Below, one piece after another: positions 3,822 through 12,364 of a stretch of 17,312 nt of DNA. A program made the translations under genes and the position numbers. This stretch comes from Deltaproteobacteria bacterium. GTDB taxonomy: Bacteria; Bdellovibrionota_F; JAHFAK01. How positions within the stretch are numbered: position 1 is the first letter of the stretch; each line of letters begins with the position of its first letter. The notes below the pieces were generated by a model. The model was not told the DNA's origin. It ran no database searches and saw only the letters and a list, made by a program, of their open reading frames with translations. Location of the stretch: contig JAHFAK010000039.1 in NCBI GenBank assembly GCA_023250585.1, forward strand, positions 1 through 17,312, in the 5' to 3' direction.

Positions 3822-5081
3822 TTAGAAAAGTTCCCAGACGCGAATATGAGATATTCCTTCTTTATTACCTAGTGAGAAATCATCAAGACTTACAACGATC
3901 TTCTCATAATTATCATTAATCTCTTCTAAATTTCCGAATTCTCTTTTTATGACTTTTTCATCAGACAAAGCGTATGCCACTTGGATATATTTTTTTTCTT
4001 TACCCTTTTCGATAATAAAATCTATTTCTTTACTCCCAATGGTTCCAACATAGAGCGTATAACCTAATGACCTATAGTAGAGATAGATACAATTTTCTAA
4101 AATATTTCCTGCCCCATAATCAAAACTCGAAGATAAATAATTTTTAAATGACAAATCATTTACATAATATTTTTTCCCTCGAGATAATATATTTTTTCCT
4201 TTAATATCAAAACGCTCAACTCCATGAATTAAAAAGGTTTGAGAAAGATATTCAATATAATTTGATATCGTTTCGAAATTAGTCTTTATTTTATGGCTAT
4301 TAAAATAACCTACCACGGTATTTATTGAGAACAATTTTCCGATGTTATCGATGAGAAATTTAAAGACAGTTTCCAAAAGATACGTATCTTTTATATTATA
4401 CCTTTGGACAATATCTTTGAAAAGAATCGTATTTTGTAAGGAAGTAACATAATTCGTTCTGGTCTCTTCATCATGTAATTTATACAATTCTGGTAAACCA
4501 CCGATCTTAATATATGAGAGATAACTTTCTTTGCTCAATGACAAAGAAAAATAATGACAATATTCTCCAAATGAAAACGGCATTATCTCAAATGATATAT
4601 ATCTTCCACTTAAATAAGAGGCAAGTTCACCTGAAAGAAGCTTTGAATTTGAGCCAGTAATAAATAACTCATATTTGTTCTTATAGTCTTGTGAAAATGA
4701 ATTGACTACCTTTTCCCAGCCATCAATTTCCTGTACTTCATCGAGAAATATAAAAATTTTTCCTCGAACTTTTAATTCTTTTTTATACAATTCAACAAGC
4801 TTCGAAAGATCTCGATATGTTTTTATATCATCAAAATCTACAAGTTCTTTATTAAGATAGAATATATTTTTTGCATTAATGCCTTGATTGATGAGCTCTT
4901 GAATGATTTGTCTTAAAATATAGCTTTTCCCGGTTCTTCTTTGTCCAACCAAGACTTTTATTAAATCATTTCCAATATATTTTTGAATTTTATTTAAATA
5001 ACTACTCCTTATAAAACCACAATCAATAGCTCGACCTTCCCAAAAATTATACTTATAGAGCTTTTTAACAATTTCAATCAT
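3822..5081 (-). CDS. DUF4143-type AAA ATPase (419 aa)
   Basis: The N-terminal ATPase domain has Walker A GQRRTGKS (residues 46-53), Walker B IFIFLDEVQ (109-117) and a sensor TGSNSK (142-147), followed by the LSGRY segment typical of the family. The C-terminal half matches the DUF4143 region: a restriction-endonuclease-like fold is suggested by E330 (LENCIYLYY), D354 (KEIDFII) and QVAY at 367-370, where the usual E-x-K is not intact. These proteins are common stand-alone accessory genes in bacteria and archaea, and their cellular role is not settled. No ribosome site is visible before the ATG; a near-consensus promoter lies about 35 nt upstream, so the leader is short. Confidence 0.88.
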   Translation of the reverse strand: MIEIVKKLYKYNFWEGRAIDCGFIRSSYLNKIQKYIGNDLIKVLVGQRRTGKSYILRQIIQELINQGINAKNIFYLNKELVDFDDIKTYRDLSKLVELYKKELKVRGKIFIFLDEVQEIDGWEKVVNSFSQDYKNKYELFITGSNSKLLSGELASYLSGRYISFEIMPFSFGEYCHYFSLSLSKESYLSYIKIGGLPELYKLHDEETRTNYVTSLQNTILFKDIVQRYNIKDTYLLETVFKFLIDNIGKLFSINTVVGYFNSHKIKTNFETISNYIEYLSQTFLIHGVERFDIKGKNILSRGKKYYVNDLSFKNYLSSSFDYGAGNILENCIYLYYRSLGYTLYVGTIGSKEIDFIIEKGKEKKYIQVAYALSDEKVIKREFGNLEEINDNYEKIVVSLDDFSLGNKEGISHIRVWELF

Positions 5082-5240: not shown

Positions 5241-5483
5241 ATGCCAAGAGTAGTTACTTTACGACTAAAGGACGAAGAGTATAATTTTATTGTAGAAGCT
5301 GCTGAAATTGAGAATAGGCCTCTCTCAAATTTTATTACCACAAAAGTTCTTAAATTTATTGAAGAATCTTATTTTGTTGACTCTATCGAAATGGAACAAA
5401 TAAATATTGATAAAAAACTACGGGAAAAACTGCGTGTAGGTTCCCTCGATGCTAAAAAAATGAAGGGAAAATTTATTGGCTAA
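5241..5483 (+). CDS. Ribbon-helix-helix antitoxin (80 aa)
   Basis: The N-terminus has the ribbon-helix-helix pattern: a beta strand (RVVTLRL, residues 3-9), helix A (DEEYNFIVEAAEIE), the turn RPLSNFI and helix B (TTKVLKFIEE). It should dimerise, bind the operon's own promoter and neutralise the downstream toxin with its C-terminal tail (residues 45-80, charged, ending KGKFIG). AGGAG at 5229-5233 lies 7 nt before the ATG. The stop codon overlaps the toxin start by 8 nt. It belongs to the CopG/RelB-like class; the exact family name is not certain. Confidence 0.85.
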   Translation: MPRVVTLRLKDEEYNFIVEAAEIENRPLSNFITTKVLKFIEESYFVDSIEMEQINIDKKLREKLRVGSLDAKKMKGKFIG

Positions 5484-5754
5484 CTTTACCATATTTGAGA
5501 CAAATCGTTTTCAAAAAGATCTTACTGAAGATTTTCAAGGACAACAAAAAAAGATTTATACAAAACTCACTGAGTTTGTTTATCCTCAGCTCAGAGAAAA
5601 TCCTTATCTTGGCAAAAACATCAAGAAGCTTGTAAACTGGAAGCCTGATACATGGCGATATCGAATCGGTAATTACCGTTTTTTCTATATTATTGATGAA
5701 AAGAAAAAAATAGTTTTTATGATTACAGCTGAACATCGTAGGAATGTATATTAA
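5476..5754 (+). CDS. RelE/ParE-superfamily toxin (92 aa), TTG start
   Basis: The protein has the RelE/ParE fold pattern: strand FTIFETN, helical hairpin (residues 11-38), then PYLGKNIKKL, WRYRIGNYRFFYII and the final strand MITAEHRRNVY. Basic residues usual for ribosome-dependent RelE nucleases are present (R61, R63, R68, R88/R89) and Tyr92 is the last residue. The start is a TTG within the antitoxin's last codons; GAAGGGA upstream gives the ribosome site. A TTG start and the overlap would keep toxin made below antitoxin. Whether it cleaves mRNA or acts on gyrase (ParE) cannot be decided here, though H87, R88 and Y92 favour a RelE-type RNase. Confidence 0.85.
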   Translation: MANFTIFETNRFQKDLTEDFQGQQKKIYTKLTEFVYPQLRENPYLGKNIKKLVNWKPDTWRYRIGNYRFFYIIDEKKKIVFMITAEHRRNVY

Positions 5755-5768
5755 ATACTCAAAGCAAA

Positions 5769-8711
5769 TTAATATTCCAATTTGTGATAATCAAGATATG
5801 TATATCCACCACACCATGTTGAAGCAGTATCTTCAGCTCCCATTTCAACGAAAACTTCTCGACTCGTTGGATTCATATTGATCCCAAAATCCTTTAAGGC
5901 ACAGTTATTATAATTTCCAAGTTTGCATTTTACAGGAACTTTAAACTCTTGGGCCTCCTTTCCAAGTTGATCATACGTATGAACAAAACTTTTAATGACA
6001 AAATAACCATCAGAACCACCATTTTTAAAATAAGGAATCCCATAGGCAACATGTGTTTCTCCATTGAGAGTATAAGAATTCGATTTGATTCTATTATCAG
6101 AATTTGTTTGTGAATTTAAATACGTCATTTCCTTCTGATCACACCACCCCGCCTTACAATTTTTTGATTTCTCTTTTTGTGAATATTTCGTTATAGAAAT
6201 CATGGTAGAAGTTATAATGTCATCGGAGTTAATTTTAGGGTATACAATTATATCCTTAAACATATTTTTATTAGATGATACGACGCTGGTGATTGTACAA
6301 AAGTCATCGCTTGCTGAAAATTTCTCGCCAAAAGATTCATCTAGGTTAGGAACCACTGATTTTTCTAAAAGCTGATTTGTTGTTAGGTTTAATAGTAAAT
6401 ATCTATACCGCTCATCGTTTGCTTTAATGAATTTATAACAAGCATGTAACAAATCATTATCGTTACTATCTTTTGTTACTACAAATGAAGCATTAGATGA
6501 TACATTTTCTTCCCTCCATTTATAGTCCCAATTATTGTTATAATTTTCTTCAAAATCTTCAGAATTTCTGTATAAAAAATAAACTACACGAGTAGAAGTT
6601 TCTTCTTCATTTTCATTATTTGTCTCTTCTGCAATAAATGAAATAACAAAATTATTATTTTCTGTCTTCTTAAAATAGAGTTTCTTAAATCCATTACTAG
6701 TTCCAAGATCTATTTCCTTAGCCTCACTACTATATAAAGGCAGCTCTGTATTATTTGGGTCATTAATATTTATTTTTACAATGTATAATCTTAGATCATA
6801 ATCACTACAATTAGTGGTAAACTTTTCCGTTAATACATAAAGATAGTTATTATAATATACCATATTTTCACTATCTAGCGGACGACTATATGGAACTGTA
6901 GTAGAGATATTTTCTGATCTACAGTATATTGTATCTAATAAGTATATTGTTTTCCAATTAATACCAGTCCATATATCTAATCTATTGTTATTACTTGTTA
7001 AAATTGGATAATTATTATCTCCATAATACGTCAAGAACCCAGTATCGCGCCATTCATAAAAATAATTACATTGAGGTGTGTTATATACTCCCACAGAAAT
7101 ATCTTCCTCTTTTACTGAATAAATGCTATTATCTGTAAGTGGTGAATCATAATATCCACCATAATAATATTTGTGTAATTGAATATAATAATCTCCTGTT
7201 GGTAGGTCATACGGTAATCGAAATGTTATTTTATCACTTTTCCACGACTCATAACATTTACTTAAATAAGCATTTGGATCATTTAAATAATACGATGAAG
7301 GATCATTCGTATACTCTGCTGGATATTCCTTTGACTCACAATCAGGATAACTATCAGTAGGAGAAATAATATATATCTTTTTATTTATATCGGATTTTGG
7401 CCTCATAAGTAAATAATGAGAGACAGATGTATCATCAAAGTTCCTTCCTTTGATAGTTATGAGTTTTCCGGCTCGTTCCATTCCTTGTTCCCAAAGAATT
7501 CCACTCGAAGGTAATACCTCTGTAATTTCAACTTGGCATGCATCACCAAGATTGGGATCACCAGTTTCATTTAATTGGTCAGGGTTATATACATCTTCAC
7601 AATTATCACAAGCATTACCGAAGGAATCAGTATCATCATTAGTTTGGGAAGGATTATAGGTACTAAGGCAATTATCACAGACATCTCCAACCTTATCACT
7701 ATCAAGATCTTCCTGGTTTATATTATCGATATACTTGCAATTATCACAGACATCTCCAACCTTATCAGTATCAGAATTTTTTTGATCAGGGTTTGCAGTA
7801 GTTGGACAATTATCACACGTATCACCTATCTTATCGGAGTCCATATCTTTTTGATCAATGTTGGCGACATACACACAATTATCAATGTTATTTTCAATAC
7901 CATCATTATCACTATCTACTGTAAATGAACAGTCCAATGGACCTTGGGTATTATTTGGTTTATTAGGGCAATTATCACATGTATCCCCTACTAAATCTTT
8001 ATCGCTATCGAGTTGATCATTATTAGTAACAAAAACACAATTATCACATGCGTCTCCAAGAGCATCGTGATCTGAATTTTTTTGATCTGGATTAGATATA
8101 GATAAGCAATTATCACATGCATCTCCAATGCCATCTTTATCTGCATCTTCTTGCCGCCTATTACTCACATTCGGGCAATTATCTACATCCATACAAATAT
8201 TATCATTATCTACGTCGTCGCTAATGTTAGGGTTATTTGGACATATATCACAAGCGTCCCCAACCCCATCATTATCGCTATCTTTCTGATCATCATTCAT
8301 AGTTGTTGGACAATTATCTTGATCAGAACATGTATTATCTTTATCAAAATCGTTTTCAGGATCATTCGGACATTTATCACATGCATTTCCTTTGCCATCT
8401 TGGTCGGTATCTTTCTGATCGCTATTAGCTACGCCTTTACAATTATCTTCAACACATCGATTATCGATCTTATGCTCATCATAAGGATCATAGGGACAAT
8501 CATCAACTGCCCCATCTCCATCACTATCATGGTTAGAATTAATTTTGTCTCGGATGATGATTACTTTATTATTTGAAGTACTATCATCAACACTGGTATC
8601 TGAACAAATGAATCCGAACGACAACGTAAGAATGAATAAGGAAAGAGCAATTAATTCATATGCTATGCCTTTTCTTTGAAAATGATAAAGAAATCTTTTA
8701 AATTGCATCAT
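5769..8711 (-). CDS. Secreted thrombospondin type-3 repeat protein (980 aa)
   Basis: A hydrophobic N-terminal segment (residues 16-35, ending FGFIC) serves as signal peptide or anchor; the sequence before Cys36 is a poor lipobox. Residues 62-393 hold about 13 TSP3 repeats of the form NPDQKxSDxDxxGDxCDNC, each with Asp-rich Ca2+-binding loops and a Cys pair. A TIG/IPT-like immunoglobulin domain follows (ITEVLPSSG...ITIKGRNF, to about residue 540). The remaining 440 residues are beta-rich, with Tyr/Trp-rich segments, and may be a propeller-like or adhesive domain; I do not recognise it. A surface or envelope Ca2+-stabilised protein is likely. No strong ribosome site precedes the ATG; Met2 is an equal candidate start. 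It is convergent with the toxin gene, 14 bp away. Confidence 0.9.
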   Translation of the reverse strand: MMQFKRFLYHFQRKGIAYELIALSLFILTLSFGFICSDTSVDDSTSNNKVIIIRDKINSNHDSDGDGAVDDCPYDPYDEHKIDNRCVEDNCKGVANSDQKDTDQDGKGNACDKCPNDPENDFDKDNTCSDQDNCPTTMNDDQKDSDNDGVGDACDICPNNPNISDDVDNDNICMDVDNCPNVSNRRQEDADKDGIGDACDNCLSISNPDQKNSDHDALGDACDNCVFVTNNDQLDSDKDLVGDTCDNCPNKPNNTQGPLDCSFTVDSDNDGIENNIDNCVYVANIDQKDMDSDKIGDTCDNCPTTANPDQKNSDTDKVGDVCDNCKYIDNINQEDLDSDKVGDVCDNCLSTYNPSQTNDDTDSFGNACDNCEDVYNPDQLNETGDPNLGDACQVEITEVLPSSGILWEQGMERAGKLITIKGRNFDDTSVSHYLLMRPKSDINKKIYIISPTDSYPDCESKEYPAEYTNDPSSYYLNDPNAYLSKCYESWKSDKITFRLPYDLPTGDYYIQLHKYYYGGYYDSPLTDNSIYSVKEEDISVGVYNTPQCNYFYEWRDTGFLTYYGDNNYPILTSNNNRLDIWTGINWKTIYLLDTIYCRSENISTTVPYSRPLDSENMVYYNNYLYVLTEKFTTNCSDYDLRLYIVKININDPNNTELPLYSSEAKEIDLGTSNGFKKLYFKKTENNNFVISFIAEETNNENEEETSTRVVYFLYRNSEDFEENYNNNWDYKWREENVSSNASFVVTKDSNDNDLLHACYKFIKANDERYRYLLLNLTTNQLLEKSVVPNLDESFGEKFSASDDFCTITSVVSSNKNMFKDIIVYPKINSDDIITSTMISITKYSQKEKSKNCKAGWCDQKEMTYLNSQTNSDNRIKSNSYTLNGETHVAYGIPYFKNGGSDGYFVIKSFVHTYDQLGKEAQEFKVPVKCKLGNYNNCALKDFGINMNPTSREVFVEMGAEDTASTWCGGYTYLDYHKLEY
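7533..8528. repeat. DNA tandem array encoding TSP3 repeats (69-bp period)
   Basis: The repeats of the TSP3 protein are visible as DNA repeats, many 69 bp (23 codons) long and headed by GCAATTATCACA. Units at 7668-7698 and 7737-7767 are identical over 31 bases, exactly 69 bp apart, pointing to recent duplication or gene conversion. Others have drifted, and two units near 7920 and 8190 are shorter or longer than the period. Confidence 0.8.
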
Positions 8712-9892: not shown

Positions 9893-10498
9893 ATGAAAGA
9901 AATATTCTTGTTCAGAAAGAACCATCCTCTAAAATTTACGAAAGAACATACTGCCCTCCTCGTTCTCGATATGCAGAGATATTTTTATGACGAAACCTCG
10001 CATGCCTATGTATCAAGCATGAAAAACATTATTCCCGCTATTAATTGTCTCATTGAGTTTTCACGGCACAATGATATCCCCGTTATATTTACACGACACG
10101 AAGAAGATACTGATGTAAAAAATTCCATGAAACGTTGGTGGAAAGGAACAATAAATCATAATGACGCTGAAATAATTAAAGAAATACGAACAGATTATGG
10201 AATCATTCTGACAAAATATTACTACGACGCTTTTTATAAAACAGACCTTGAAAAAATCCTGAAAGAACAAAAAATTGAAAACCTTATTATATCTGGTGTC
10301 ATGACTCATCTGTGTTGCGAAACGACTGCACGATCAGCTTTTATGCGTGGCTTTGAGGTATATTTCACCATTGATGGGACAGCAACGTATAATGAAGATT
10401 TTCATAGAGCAAGTTTATTAAATCTTGCACATGGATTTGCATATCCTGTGTTGGTTGAAGAGATTGTGTCATTGCGAGGAGGCTCTTTTGAGAGCTGA
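9893..10498 (+). CDS. Isochorismatase-family cysteine hydrolase (201 aa)
   Basis: The isochorismatase-like fold is clear, with the catalytic triad Asp26 (ALLVLDMQ), Lys108 (ILTKYYYDAF) and Cys141 (GVMTHLCCETTAR, with the expected cis-peptide at VM). Enzymes of this family hydrolyse amides, N-carbamoyl compounds or vinyl ethers; the substrate here cannot be told. The last nine residues and the stop codon (SLRGGSFES*) are encoded by the left part of a palindromic repeat, so the natural C-terminus has been altered. No clear ribosome site lies before the ATG. The gene is followed, across the repeat, by the flavoprotein gene and may share its operon. Confidence 0.88.
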   Translation: MKEIFLFRKNHPLKFTKEHTALLVLDMQRYFYDETSHAYVSSMKNIIPAINCLIEFSRHNDIPVIFTRHEEDTDVKNSMKRWWKGTINHNDAEIIKEIRTDYGIILTKYYYDAFYKTDLEKILKEQKIENLIISGVMTHLCCETTARSAFMRGFEVYFTIDGTATYNEDFHRASLLNLAHGFAYPVLVEEIVSLRGGSFES

Positions 10499-10557
10499 CG
10501 AAGCAATCTCTCTTAATTTATGGGATTGCTTCGCAAGCAGAGCTTGCTCGCAATGAC
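10468..10557. repeat. 90-bp palindromic repeat (GCAATGAC family)
   Basis: Outer arms GTCATTGCGAG (10468-10478) and CTCGCAATGAC (10547-10557) are perfect. Inner arms CGAAGCAATC (10499-10508) and GATTGCTTCG (10524-10533) are also perfect. Two small hairpins sit between them (GCTCT/AGAGC at 10482-10486 and 10491-10495; GCAAG/CTTGC at 10533-10537 and 10543-10547), giving a cloverleaf-like fold. The element spans the end of the isochorismatase gene and reaches to 9 bp before the flavoprotein ATG. Repeats with the same arms are, from memory, widespread in bacterial genomes. Confidence 0.85.
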
Positions 10558-10566
10558 AAAAGAACT

Positions 10567-11445
10567 ATGAAACATGAAAAAATCATCATAATTGGCGCAG
10601 GTCCAGCAGGGATTGCGGCCGCGATACAGTTGCAACACTTTGGTTTTAGTCCAATCCTTTTTGAAAAAGGAGATATTGGCGGGCTTTTACGAAATGCTCA
10701 ATCGATACAAAATTTCCCCGGCATATCTTATGGAATCTCAGGAATTGAGCTGATCGCAATTTTTAAAGATCATTTAGAAAAAAAACACATAAAAATTATT
10801 AAAAGTTATATAGAAAAAATTGATTTTAATAATCAGTTTATTCTCTTTTCCGATACTGAAACATTCACTGCAGATAGAGTTATCATTGCCACGGGGACGA
10901 GCCCCCTCTCTTATTCATGTGCCAATAATAAAAATGTCTTTTATGAAGTGTACCCGATCCGACAAGTAGAAAATAAAACTATCGCAATTGTGGGAGCTGG
11001 TGATGCTGCTTTTGATTATGCGAATACGTTGCTACCAAAAAATAAAGTAATTATTCTGAATCGATCGGAACGAATTAAAGCAAATAGAACTCTCTATAAT
11101 GAGGTCATGGAAAAGAAAAAGAATCTTGTGTATATCAAAAATGTCACTATTGAAAATATACAAACTAATGAATCTGGGAGTATAAGGCTTATTTTAACTA
11201 ATAATGAATCGCATGAAGTAGATTATGTAATTGCTGCAATTGGAAGAAAACCAACAATGCCAGAATTTACGCAAAAACTACAAGAATCCAAAGAGTATTT
11301 ACAAATCAAGAAAAAACTACTATTCATAGGTGATGTAAAAAATAATCATTTCAGGCAATCATCTATTTCTATTGGTGAAGGCGTTAAAGCAGCGATGGAG
11401 ATGTATGATGTGCTGACGGAGAATGAAGAACATGCGTGTGATTAA
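10567..11445 (+). CDS. Thioredoxin-reductase-like flavoprotein without CxxC (292 aa)
   Basis: This is a two-dinucleotide-fold NAD(P)H-dependent oxidoreductase: FAD-binding GAGPAG (residues 10-15), ATG motif (108-110, IIATG), NAD(P)-binding GAGDAA (143-148) and the C-terminal FAD-binding GD (255-256, LLFIGD) with SSISIGEG. The length fits thioredoxin reductase, but the region that should carry the CxxC (between ATG and GAGDAA) has none, so it is not a thioredoxin reductase. It could be a ferredoxin/flavodoxin reductase-like or low-molecular-weight disulfide reductase. The next gene overlaps it by 14 nt, so it may provide electrons to the radical SAM enzyme; this is inference. The ribosome site is weak. 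Confidence 0.87.
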   Translation: MKHEKIIIIGAGPAGIAAAIQLQHFGFSPILFEKGDIGGLLRNAQSIQNFPGISYGISGIELIAIFKDHLEKKHIKIIKSYIEKIDFNNQFILFSDTETFTADRVIIATGTSPLSYSCANNKNVFYEVYPIRQVENKTIAIVGAGDAAFDYANTLLPKNKVIILNRSERIKANRTLYNEVMEKKKNLVYIKNVTIENIQTNESGSIRLILTNNESHEVDYVIAAIGRKPTMPEFTQKLQESKEYLQIKKKLLFIGDVKNNHFRQSSISIGEGVKAAMEMYDVLTENEEHACD

Positions 11446-12364
11446 GACATTGGGCACTGATGCTTTGGCTAAAGTATATATTGCAGAAAATGACGAAGGA
11501 AAAAGAATTGAATTTGTTGAATCTATAAACCCTGGAACGCCTCTTAATGAAAAATGGATTCTTATTATTTCTACATTATATGGCTGCCCGACACGTTGTA
11601 TTTTTTGTGATGCCGGAGGATTTTATAAAGGCAAACTTTCTTATGAAGACTTACTTTTCCAAATCGAACACCCCGTTTTAAAACGTTTTCCCGATAAATT
11701 CGTCGATGTGCAAAAGTTTAAGATTCAATTTGCGCGAATGGGCGAGCCCACGTTTAATATGGAAGTTTTGAGGCTCATCGATAATTTTGATAGACATTTC
11801 AAAGCGCCAGGCTTTATGCCTTCAATCTCAACTATGGCGCCTTTCGGGCGAGATGAATTTTTTGATGAACTTATTCGTGTAAAAAATAAACACTATCATG
11901 GTCGATTTCAAATGCAGTTTTCTATTCATACTACGAATGATGAACAGCTAAAAAAATTCATCCCGTTTCCTCGCTTGCCTTATTCAAAAATGGCTGAGTT
12001 TGGTGATAAATTCTTCGAAAAAGGCGATCGTAAAATTGCCCTAAATTTCGCACTCTCAAGTGAATCAGAATTAGATGCAGCAAAGCTCATTCCTTATTTT
12101 AATCCTGAAAAATTTATGATTAAAATTACTCCAATGAATCCAACATTAAGACGAAATCAGCATAATCTATCCTCATATGAATTTGACGGGAGAGAAACAG
12201 AAATTGTTCGTTCACTTCAATCATGTGGTTATGATGTAGTAGTAAGTGTAAATGATTTTGAAGAAAATGCCATTGGCTCAAACTGCGGTCAATTTGTAAC
12301 ACGCATGGAACACAATGAATTTGAAGAAGCAAGCAAAACACGAGACTTCTATACCTATGCATAA
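11432..12364 (+). CDS. RlmN-like radical SAM protein (310 aa), substrate unknown
   Basis: The [4Fe-4S]/SAM motif is CPTRCIFC (Cys52, 56, 59). MGEP (103-106) matches the SAM-binding motif of RlmN/Cfr, and FSIHTTNDEQLKKFIPF and ITPMNP match later RlmN blocks. The RlmN methyl-carrying Cys near the C-terminus (CGQ) is kept as NCGQF (Cys285). The second catalytic Cys, seven residues before the cluster's first Cys in RlmN, is Ile45 here, and the N-terminal domain is short. I infer a methyl-transferring or related chemistry on an unknown, possibly non-rRNA, substrate. The start at 11432 is chosen because GGAGA lies 9 nt upstream; ATG at 11423 is too close to it. It overlaps the lipoprotein gene by 8 nt. 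Confidence 0.8.
   Translation: MRVIKTLGTDALAKVYIAENDEGKRIEFVESINPGTPLNEKWILIISTLYGCPTRCIFCDAGGFYKGKLSYEDLLFQIEHPVLKRFPDKFVDVQKFKIQFARMGEPTFNMEVLRLIDNFDRHFKAPGFMPSISTMAPFGRDEFFDELIRVKNKHYHGRFQMQFSIHTTNDEQLKKFIPFPRLPYSKMAEFGDKFFEKGDRKIALNFALSSESELDAAKLIPYFNPEKFMIKITPMNPTLRRNQHNLSSYEFDGRETEIVRSLQSCGYDVVVSVNDFEENAIGSNCGQFVTRMEHNEFEEASKTRDFYTYA

Follow-up and report, generated by a model that had tools for sequence, protein, structure and literature searches.

A widespread bacterial family of RlmN-like radical SAM proteins without the resolving cysteine, encoded with a flavoprotein and a cysteine hydrolase

Introduction

The enzymes so far characterised as assembling a methyl group on a cysteine and transferring it through radical addition are RlmN and Cfr; a second cysteine is considered essential in each. 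Met176 of RlmN is a proposed stabiliser of the cysteinyl radical. Two conserved cysteines define the class A radical SAM methylases (PMC9692996). The essential Cys118 of RlmN, Cys105 in Cfr, deprotonates the covalent adduct so that the C–S bond fragments, and the RlmN C118A and Cfr C105A or C105S variants stall as covalent adducts (PMC9692996, PMC13001441). A first-pass annotation of the locus described here had Cys118 resolving the adduct; the residue is now regarded mainly as a general base that triggers C–S fragmentation, and less as a simple disulfide former (PMC9692996, PMC13001441). Cfr touches its target nucleotide A2503 through Ser103, Ser153, Asn288, Arg327 and Phe330 (PMC13001441). 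A different precedent is provided by LipT, an FAD-dependent NAD(P)H oxidoreductase whose gene accompanies those of the radical SAM lipoyl synthases LipS1/S2 and which is proposed as their electron donor (PMC10332631).

A family in which the methyl-bearing cysteine is retained and the second one is absent offers a natural test of how the covalent adduct resolves. Here we describe such a family, starting from one protein, P0001, encoded in a 17,312-nt stretch of contig JAHFAK010000039.1 (the window) from a deltaproteobacterium.

Results

RlmN motifs in a protein outside the known models

P0001 (11432–12364, forward strand, 310 amino acids) is identified as an RlmN-like radical SAM protein by its motifs, profile alignment, AlphaFold model and structural match. 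Its translation agrees with the motifs and numbering given by the first-pass annotation: the cluster ligands C52-x3-C56-x2-C59 (CPTRCIFC), MGEP at residues 103–106, Cys285 in NCGQF (SNC285GQ) and Ile45 seven residues ahead of C52. A second possible start, also an in-frame ATG, is found at 11423. P0001 reaches the cut-off of no Pfam, NCBIfam or PADLOC model, and its Pfam Radical_SAM score lies under the threshold. The best NCBIfam matches are RlmN/Cfr-type models at 21–26 bits, against cut-offs of 422–550; the Cfr-type models score 21–23 bits against 530–550, with CfrAB at 22.7 against 530. TIGR00048 (cut-off 290 bits) is absent from its NCBIfam hits and gives other family members 22–52 bits, and phmmer with the single P0001 sequence found no RlmN in the PDB. 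Since single-sequence searches place P0001 this far from RlmN, family-level alignments were needed.

A survey of 386 genomes spread over bacteria yielded 28 clear relatives of P0001 (35–53% identity, E < 1e-54) in 21 GTDB families, and an extra, frameshifted relative in Chlorobi bacterium OLB5 (L003). In one phylum the gene is carried by 45 of 103 genomes. The name of that phylum, Thermotoga-like, is inferred from one carrier (L128), which is most likely a Thermotoga because the closest PDB match of its TrpB is the engineered TmTyrS1 (388 residues, 843 bits). Members are about 300–325 amino acids long. In all 21 families the cluster motif, MGE/DP and Cys285 are unchanged, as are about 37 columns of the alignment, and K41, Q99, R102, K231 and E278 are invariant and family-specific. 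When the proteins were aligned and placed in a tree, as the first-pass annotation had proposed, they formed a single clade that excludes RlmN, Cfr and two short RlmN-like proteins, L090 and L091 (SH-aLRT 99, in a quick tree for which the program warned of long branches). Judged from sequence, this is a widespread and previously undescribed bacterial enzyme family, RlmN-like but without the resolving cysteine. Beyond the single protein first noticed, there is therefore a whole family, and it has two conserved partner genes.

The methyl-carrying cysteine is kept and the resolving cysteine is lost

A profile of 28 family members (A1) was aligned with a profile of 12 RlmN proteins (A2) by hhalign, giving 99.5% probability over columns 7–298. 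The alignment places Cys285 on the cysteine of the RlmN CGQ motif, as had been claimed for RlmN Cys355, and Ile45 on the cysteine of TLC/TVC, the Cys118 equivalent. An hmmsearch of A1 against the PDB matches E. coli RlmN, S. thermophilus RlmN and Cfr with E-values from 3e-10 to 3e-14 (Cfr 4.9e-13, over almost the whole protein), and the alignments to E. coli RlmN and to Cfr pair both positions as hhalign does, so that the assignment of Ile45 to the Cys118 position is borne out by two methods. We looked for a cysteine at the Cys118 position and for signs that the NCGQ match is not homologous, and found neither. Position 45 is Ile in 21 members, Met in three, Val in two and Leu and Ser in one each, and is Cys in none; it is Ile in all 45 additional readable stretches, some of which are duplicate readings of one gene. 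Cys285, in contrast, is kept in 28 of 28. The only conserved cysteine columns are C52, C56, C59 and C285, with strays in single members such as Cys265 in P0001 and Cys48 in L057. Loss of the Cys118 equivalent is a trait of the family and not a peculiarity of P0001.

Other residues of the RlmN and Cfr active sites are replaced as well. Thr116, Met176 and Gly177 of RlmN correspond to Val43 (27 of 28 members), Ala101 (26 of 28) and Arg102 (28 of 28). In the hmmsearch alignment of A1 with the PDB, none of the five Cfr residues that contact A2503 is retained: Ser103 becomes Val43 (Val in 27 of 28), Ser153 an invariant Gln99, Asn288 an invariant Lys231, Arg327 Gly or Asn at position 274, and Phe330 Glu277 (mostly Glu). 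An AlphaFold model of P0001 built on the 28-sequence alignment has a pLDDT of 88.4 and a pTM of 0.87, with confidence dropping to about 64–71 near residues 271–300. VIA-align ranks E. coli RlmN (5hr6) first for this model (Z 23.6, 268 residues, 3.1 Å), followed by Cfr (Z 17.6) and lipoyl synthase (Z 13.8). Residues 1–290 of the model pair with RlmN 80–361, and with Cfr from residue 66. Because they cover just this part of RlmN, the model indicates that the N-terminal HhH RNA-binding domain is absent from P0001.

The family thus shares with RlmN (TIGR00048) the radical SAM core and its preceding beta extension, CxxxCxxC, MGEP and the methyl-carrying cysteine in CGQ, but lacks the Cys118 equivalent and the HhH domain, has Ala-Arg for Met176-Gly177 and has replaced nucleotide contacts. 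With Cfr it shares the core and CGQ, but not the Cys105 equivalent or the Ser103, Ser153, Asn288 and Arg327 contacts. The short proteins L090 and L091 (271–277 amino acids) also lack the N-terminal domain, but differ from the P0001 family in keeping the Cys118 equivalent (RLCxSxQVGC) and in having CGT for CGQ; no FAD or hydrolase partner was found in their neighbourhoods, and they are another uncharacterised RlmN-like group. P0001 departs from class A in two defining features, the second cysteine and the family score, and the RNA-binding domain is also missing, for which reasons it should be annotated as neither RlmN nor Cfr.

The first-pass annotation had also suggested a search of the source genome for a canonical RlmN. 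One is present elsewhere in that genome (397.8 bits, both cysteines present), and an RlmN-type protein of at least 257 bits occurs in 25 of the 28 other carriers; the three carriers with no RlmN match are assemblies 82–92% complete. With a separate RlmN present, it is unlikely that the RlmN-like enzyme methylates C2 or C8 of 23S rRNA A2503 or of tRNA A37. The earlier suspicion that the substrate may not be A2503 is strengthened by this, by the predicted loss of the HhH domain and by the replaced nucleotide-contact residues.

A conserved three-gene operon

Two genes precede that of P0001 on the forward strand. At 9893–10498 lies an isochorismatase-family cysteine hydrolase (PF00857, 144.5 bits) with a D26-K108-C141 triad, and at 10567–11445 an NAD(P)H/FAD oxidoreductase of thioredoxin-reductase fold without CxxC (PF07992, 92.7 bits; thioredoxin reductase structural match, Z 31.4), which shares 14 nt with the P0001 reading frame. 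Across the family the order is hydrolase, FAD protein and, last, the RlmN-like enzyme, in genes that mostly overlap. Among the 29 loci that include DNA upstream of the radical SAM gene, 28, spread over 21 bacterial families, have the FAD gene immediately before it. In 22 of these 28 the FAD gene runs into the start of the radical SAM gene, and in 14 the shared stretch measures exactly 4 nt. The hydrolase gene comes first, as described, in 22 of the 28 loci whose upstream sequence reaches far enough; with L003, which has neither partner gene nearby, set aside, it is present in 22 of 27 and missing from five, and its step may therefore be dispensable. The partner genes of four loci (L044, L054, L055 and L060) were located by tblastn. 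The pairwise distance matrices of hydrolase, FAD protein and RlmN-like enzyme correlate (Mantel r 0.79–0.82; 0 of 2000 permutations as high), a correlation to which shared species history contributes and which fits joint inheritance of the three proteins, as expected.

Beyond the hydrolase and FAD genes, the family loci compared share no conserved neighbour. The LppC/Peripla_BP_6-type lipoprotein gene downstream of P0001 (12357–14309, forward strand), whose first 8 nt coincide with the end of the radical SAM gene, is a local neighbour only. For an operon of hydrolase, FAD protein and RlmN-like enzyme, no paper was found in the literature searched, which was open-access and did not extend to subscription papers.

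In the FAD protein, G10, G12 and G15 and G143, A148 and D150 are invariant and form two Rossmann GxGxxG/A motifs. CxxC is absent from 27 of 28 orthologues, which have no conserved cysteine column; L060 alone has a CxxC somewhere, and the site of the thioredoxin reductase CxxC carries no cysteine in the FAD partner of P0001. The protein therefore keeps the fold and the FAD and NAD(P)H motifs of thioredoxin reductase but not its redox-active CxxC. In this it resembles the thioredoxin-reductase-type ferredoxin-NADP+ reductases, which have the same fold and both nucleotide-binding motifs without a redox CxxC, although its sequence is closer to thioredoxin reductase (phmmer 1.5e-26 versus 1.7e-7). 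In the hydrolase, D26, K108 and C141 are invariant in 21 orthologues, and the nucleophile is the sole invariant cysteine.

Discussion

A family with an invariant methyl-carrier cysteine and a hydrophobic residue in place of Cys118 must either replace the step that Cys118 performs or run different chemistry. Since the C118A and C105A/S variants stall, loss of this cysteine would be expected to block class A chemistry unless it is replaced. Family-wide loss of Cys118 lends weight to the original proposal that the adduct is resolved in another way or that the chemistry itself differs. An invariant Cys285 is not in itself proof that the residue is methylated, and its methyl-carrier role is put forward here from homology.

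The reading we favour, held a little short of even confidence, is S-methylcysteine-based C-methylation or methylene transfer to a substrate that is not rRNA and is probably small, with the FAD protein driving the reaction and the Cys118 step done otherwise. Homology, fold, residue replacements, operon conservation and co-inheritance are established, and the catalytic steps proposed on them are all inferred. P0001 would be the catalytic subunit of the three-gene module. The FAD protein would take electrons from NAD(P)H and pass them to the radical SAM cluster, directly or via ferredoxin, because the CxxC that would route them to a disulfide is missing. This role of electron donor is favoured by analogy with LipT, as the LipS1/LipS2–LipT module likewise encodes its radical SAM enzymes with an FAD-dependent NAD(P)H oxidoreductase (PMC10332631), although LipS1/S2 are biotin-synthase-like and P0001 is RlmN-like. 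By homology, SAM would first methylate Cys285; a second SAM would then be cleaved to a 5'-deoxyadenosyl radical that abstracts hydrogen from S-methyl-Cys285, and the resulting methylene radical would add to an sp2 carbon of the substrate. Deprotonation of the adduct and breakage of its C–S bond might fall to the family-specific Glu278, to Lys41 or Lys231, or to the substrate itself; the three candidate bases are all invariant in the family. The substrate is probably a small molecule and not A2503 of 23S rRNA, as the RNA-binding domain and nucleotide contacts are gone and the partner is a small-amide-type hydrolase, which may act before or after the radical step.

The main rival is that the enzyme is not a methylase at all. 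Cys285 would be kept and the radical used otherwise, with Cys285 as a hydrogen-atom donor, in methylene or carbon insertion or in a small-molecule ring rearrangement, and the FAD protein and hydrolase would finish the product. Such chemistry would suit the loss of the Cys118 equivalent, which in RlmN serves C–S fragmentation, and of Met176/Gly177, of which Met176 is thought to steady the cysteinyl radical, and also the invariant family-specific K41, Q99, R102, K231 and E278. However, Cys285 is invariant and both its CGQ/CGM context and its register are those of the methyl-carrying cysteine, within an RlmN fold whose full core is retained, and we consider this rival on balance unlikely. Less likely still is an RNA methylase whose target would be some other adenine in tRNA or rRNA, with other surfaces recognising the RNA and another base replacing Cys118. 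The nearest characterised relatives are all RNA-acting, and the N-terminal domain is missing from the cysteine-bearing L090 and L091 too, so that its absence is by itself compatible with an RNA substrate. Against this stand the replaced Cfr nucleotide-contact residues and the identity of the conserved partners, a flavoprotein and a small-amide hydrolase; we know of no RNA methylation that needs such partners.

It is highly improbable that another cysteine, in P0001-type proteins or in a partner, substitutes for Cys118 in space. Single members do offer candidates such as the stray cysteines named above, but the family has no further conserved cysteine column, the FAD partner has none, and the one invariant cysteine of the hydrolase is its nucleophile. 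A dead or degenerate RlmN paralogue is very unlikely and the least credible of these alternatives: a residue essential in RlmN and Cfr is indeed missing, but the cluster motif, MGE/DP, Cys285 and the other invariant columns persist over 21 families, in a conserved operon whose partner genes co-vary.

Should S-methylcysteine-based transfer to a small substrate hold, the family may represent a further functional lineage of RlmN/Cfr, coupled to a flavoprotein, moving a methyl or methylene group from S-methylcysteine to a small molecule and resolving the adduct without a second cysteine, in an undescribed cofactor or metabolite pathway of many bacterial phyla including Thermotoga-like genomes; we hold this wider proposal more tentatively. 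The operon marks out a pathway, as yet uncharacterised, whose three genes are translationally coupled and include a flavoprotein dedicated to it; the occurrence of the operon in Thermotoga-like genomes is of practical value, as their proteins should purify easily.

Lineage-specific neighbours and other features

Several functional links were considered and set aside. A LipS2-type lipoyl synthase gene lies right before the hydrolase gene in three Thermotogota-like loci, L130 (5606–6499), L131 (9753–10667) and L138 (10274–11185), with scores of 342–352 bits in the first two (cut-off 270) and assignment by similarity in the third. LipS2 occurs in 18 of 386 genomes overall. As just three of 28 carriers have it, two from the same phylum, lipoate was rejected as a general function. 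In two Thermotoga-like loci a gene for an MBL-fold, GloB-like hydrolase sits between the FAD and radical SAM genes (L128, 8350–8922; L129, 7951–8529), and an MgsA-like gene lies downstream in L134, the latter judged by eye in a stretch that gave no NCBIfam match when submitted; a methylglyoxal/glyoxalase link was rejected as lineage-specific. A link to NAD(P)HX repair was rejected since a repair-like gene lies upstream in L034 only. A defence system was rejected, PADLOC having no match for the radical SAM protein or hydrolase and one trivial partial match for the FAD protein. A mobile origin was likewise rejected: no relative was found in the viral contigs searched, and a plasmid search gave just two weak RlmN/Cfr-type matches. 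In one genome (G480, contig C1; L141 and L142) the radical SAM gene is seemingly in two pieces about 76 kb apart, which suggests rearrangement or loss.

In the window, no Rfam families or tRNA genes were detected. A dispersed palindromic repeat at 10470–10557, between the hydrolase and FAD genes, has the core GATTGCTTCGC...TCGCAATGAC and 19 copies in the genome against none in a reversed control; it encodes the C-terminus of the hydrolase and its position between the two genes is probably incidental. Further upstream are an AAA_14/DUF4143 ATPase (3822–5081, by Pfam) and two small genes resembling an antitoxin and RelE-type toxin pair (5241–5754, by eye). At 5769–8711 lies a gene for a probably secreted 980-aa protein with many thrombospondin type 3-like DxDxDG calcium-binding repeats, also recognised by eye.
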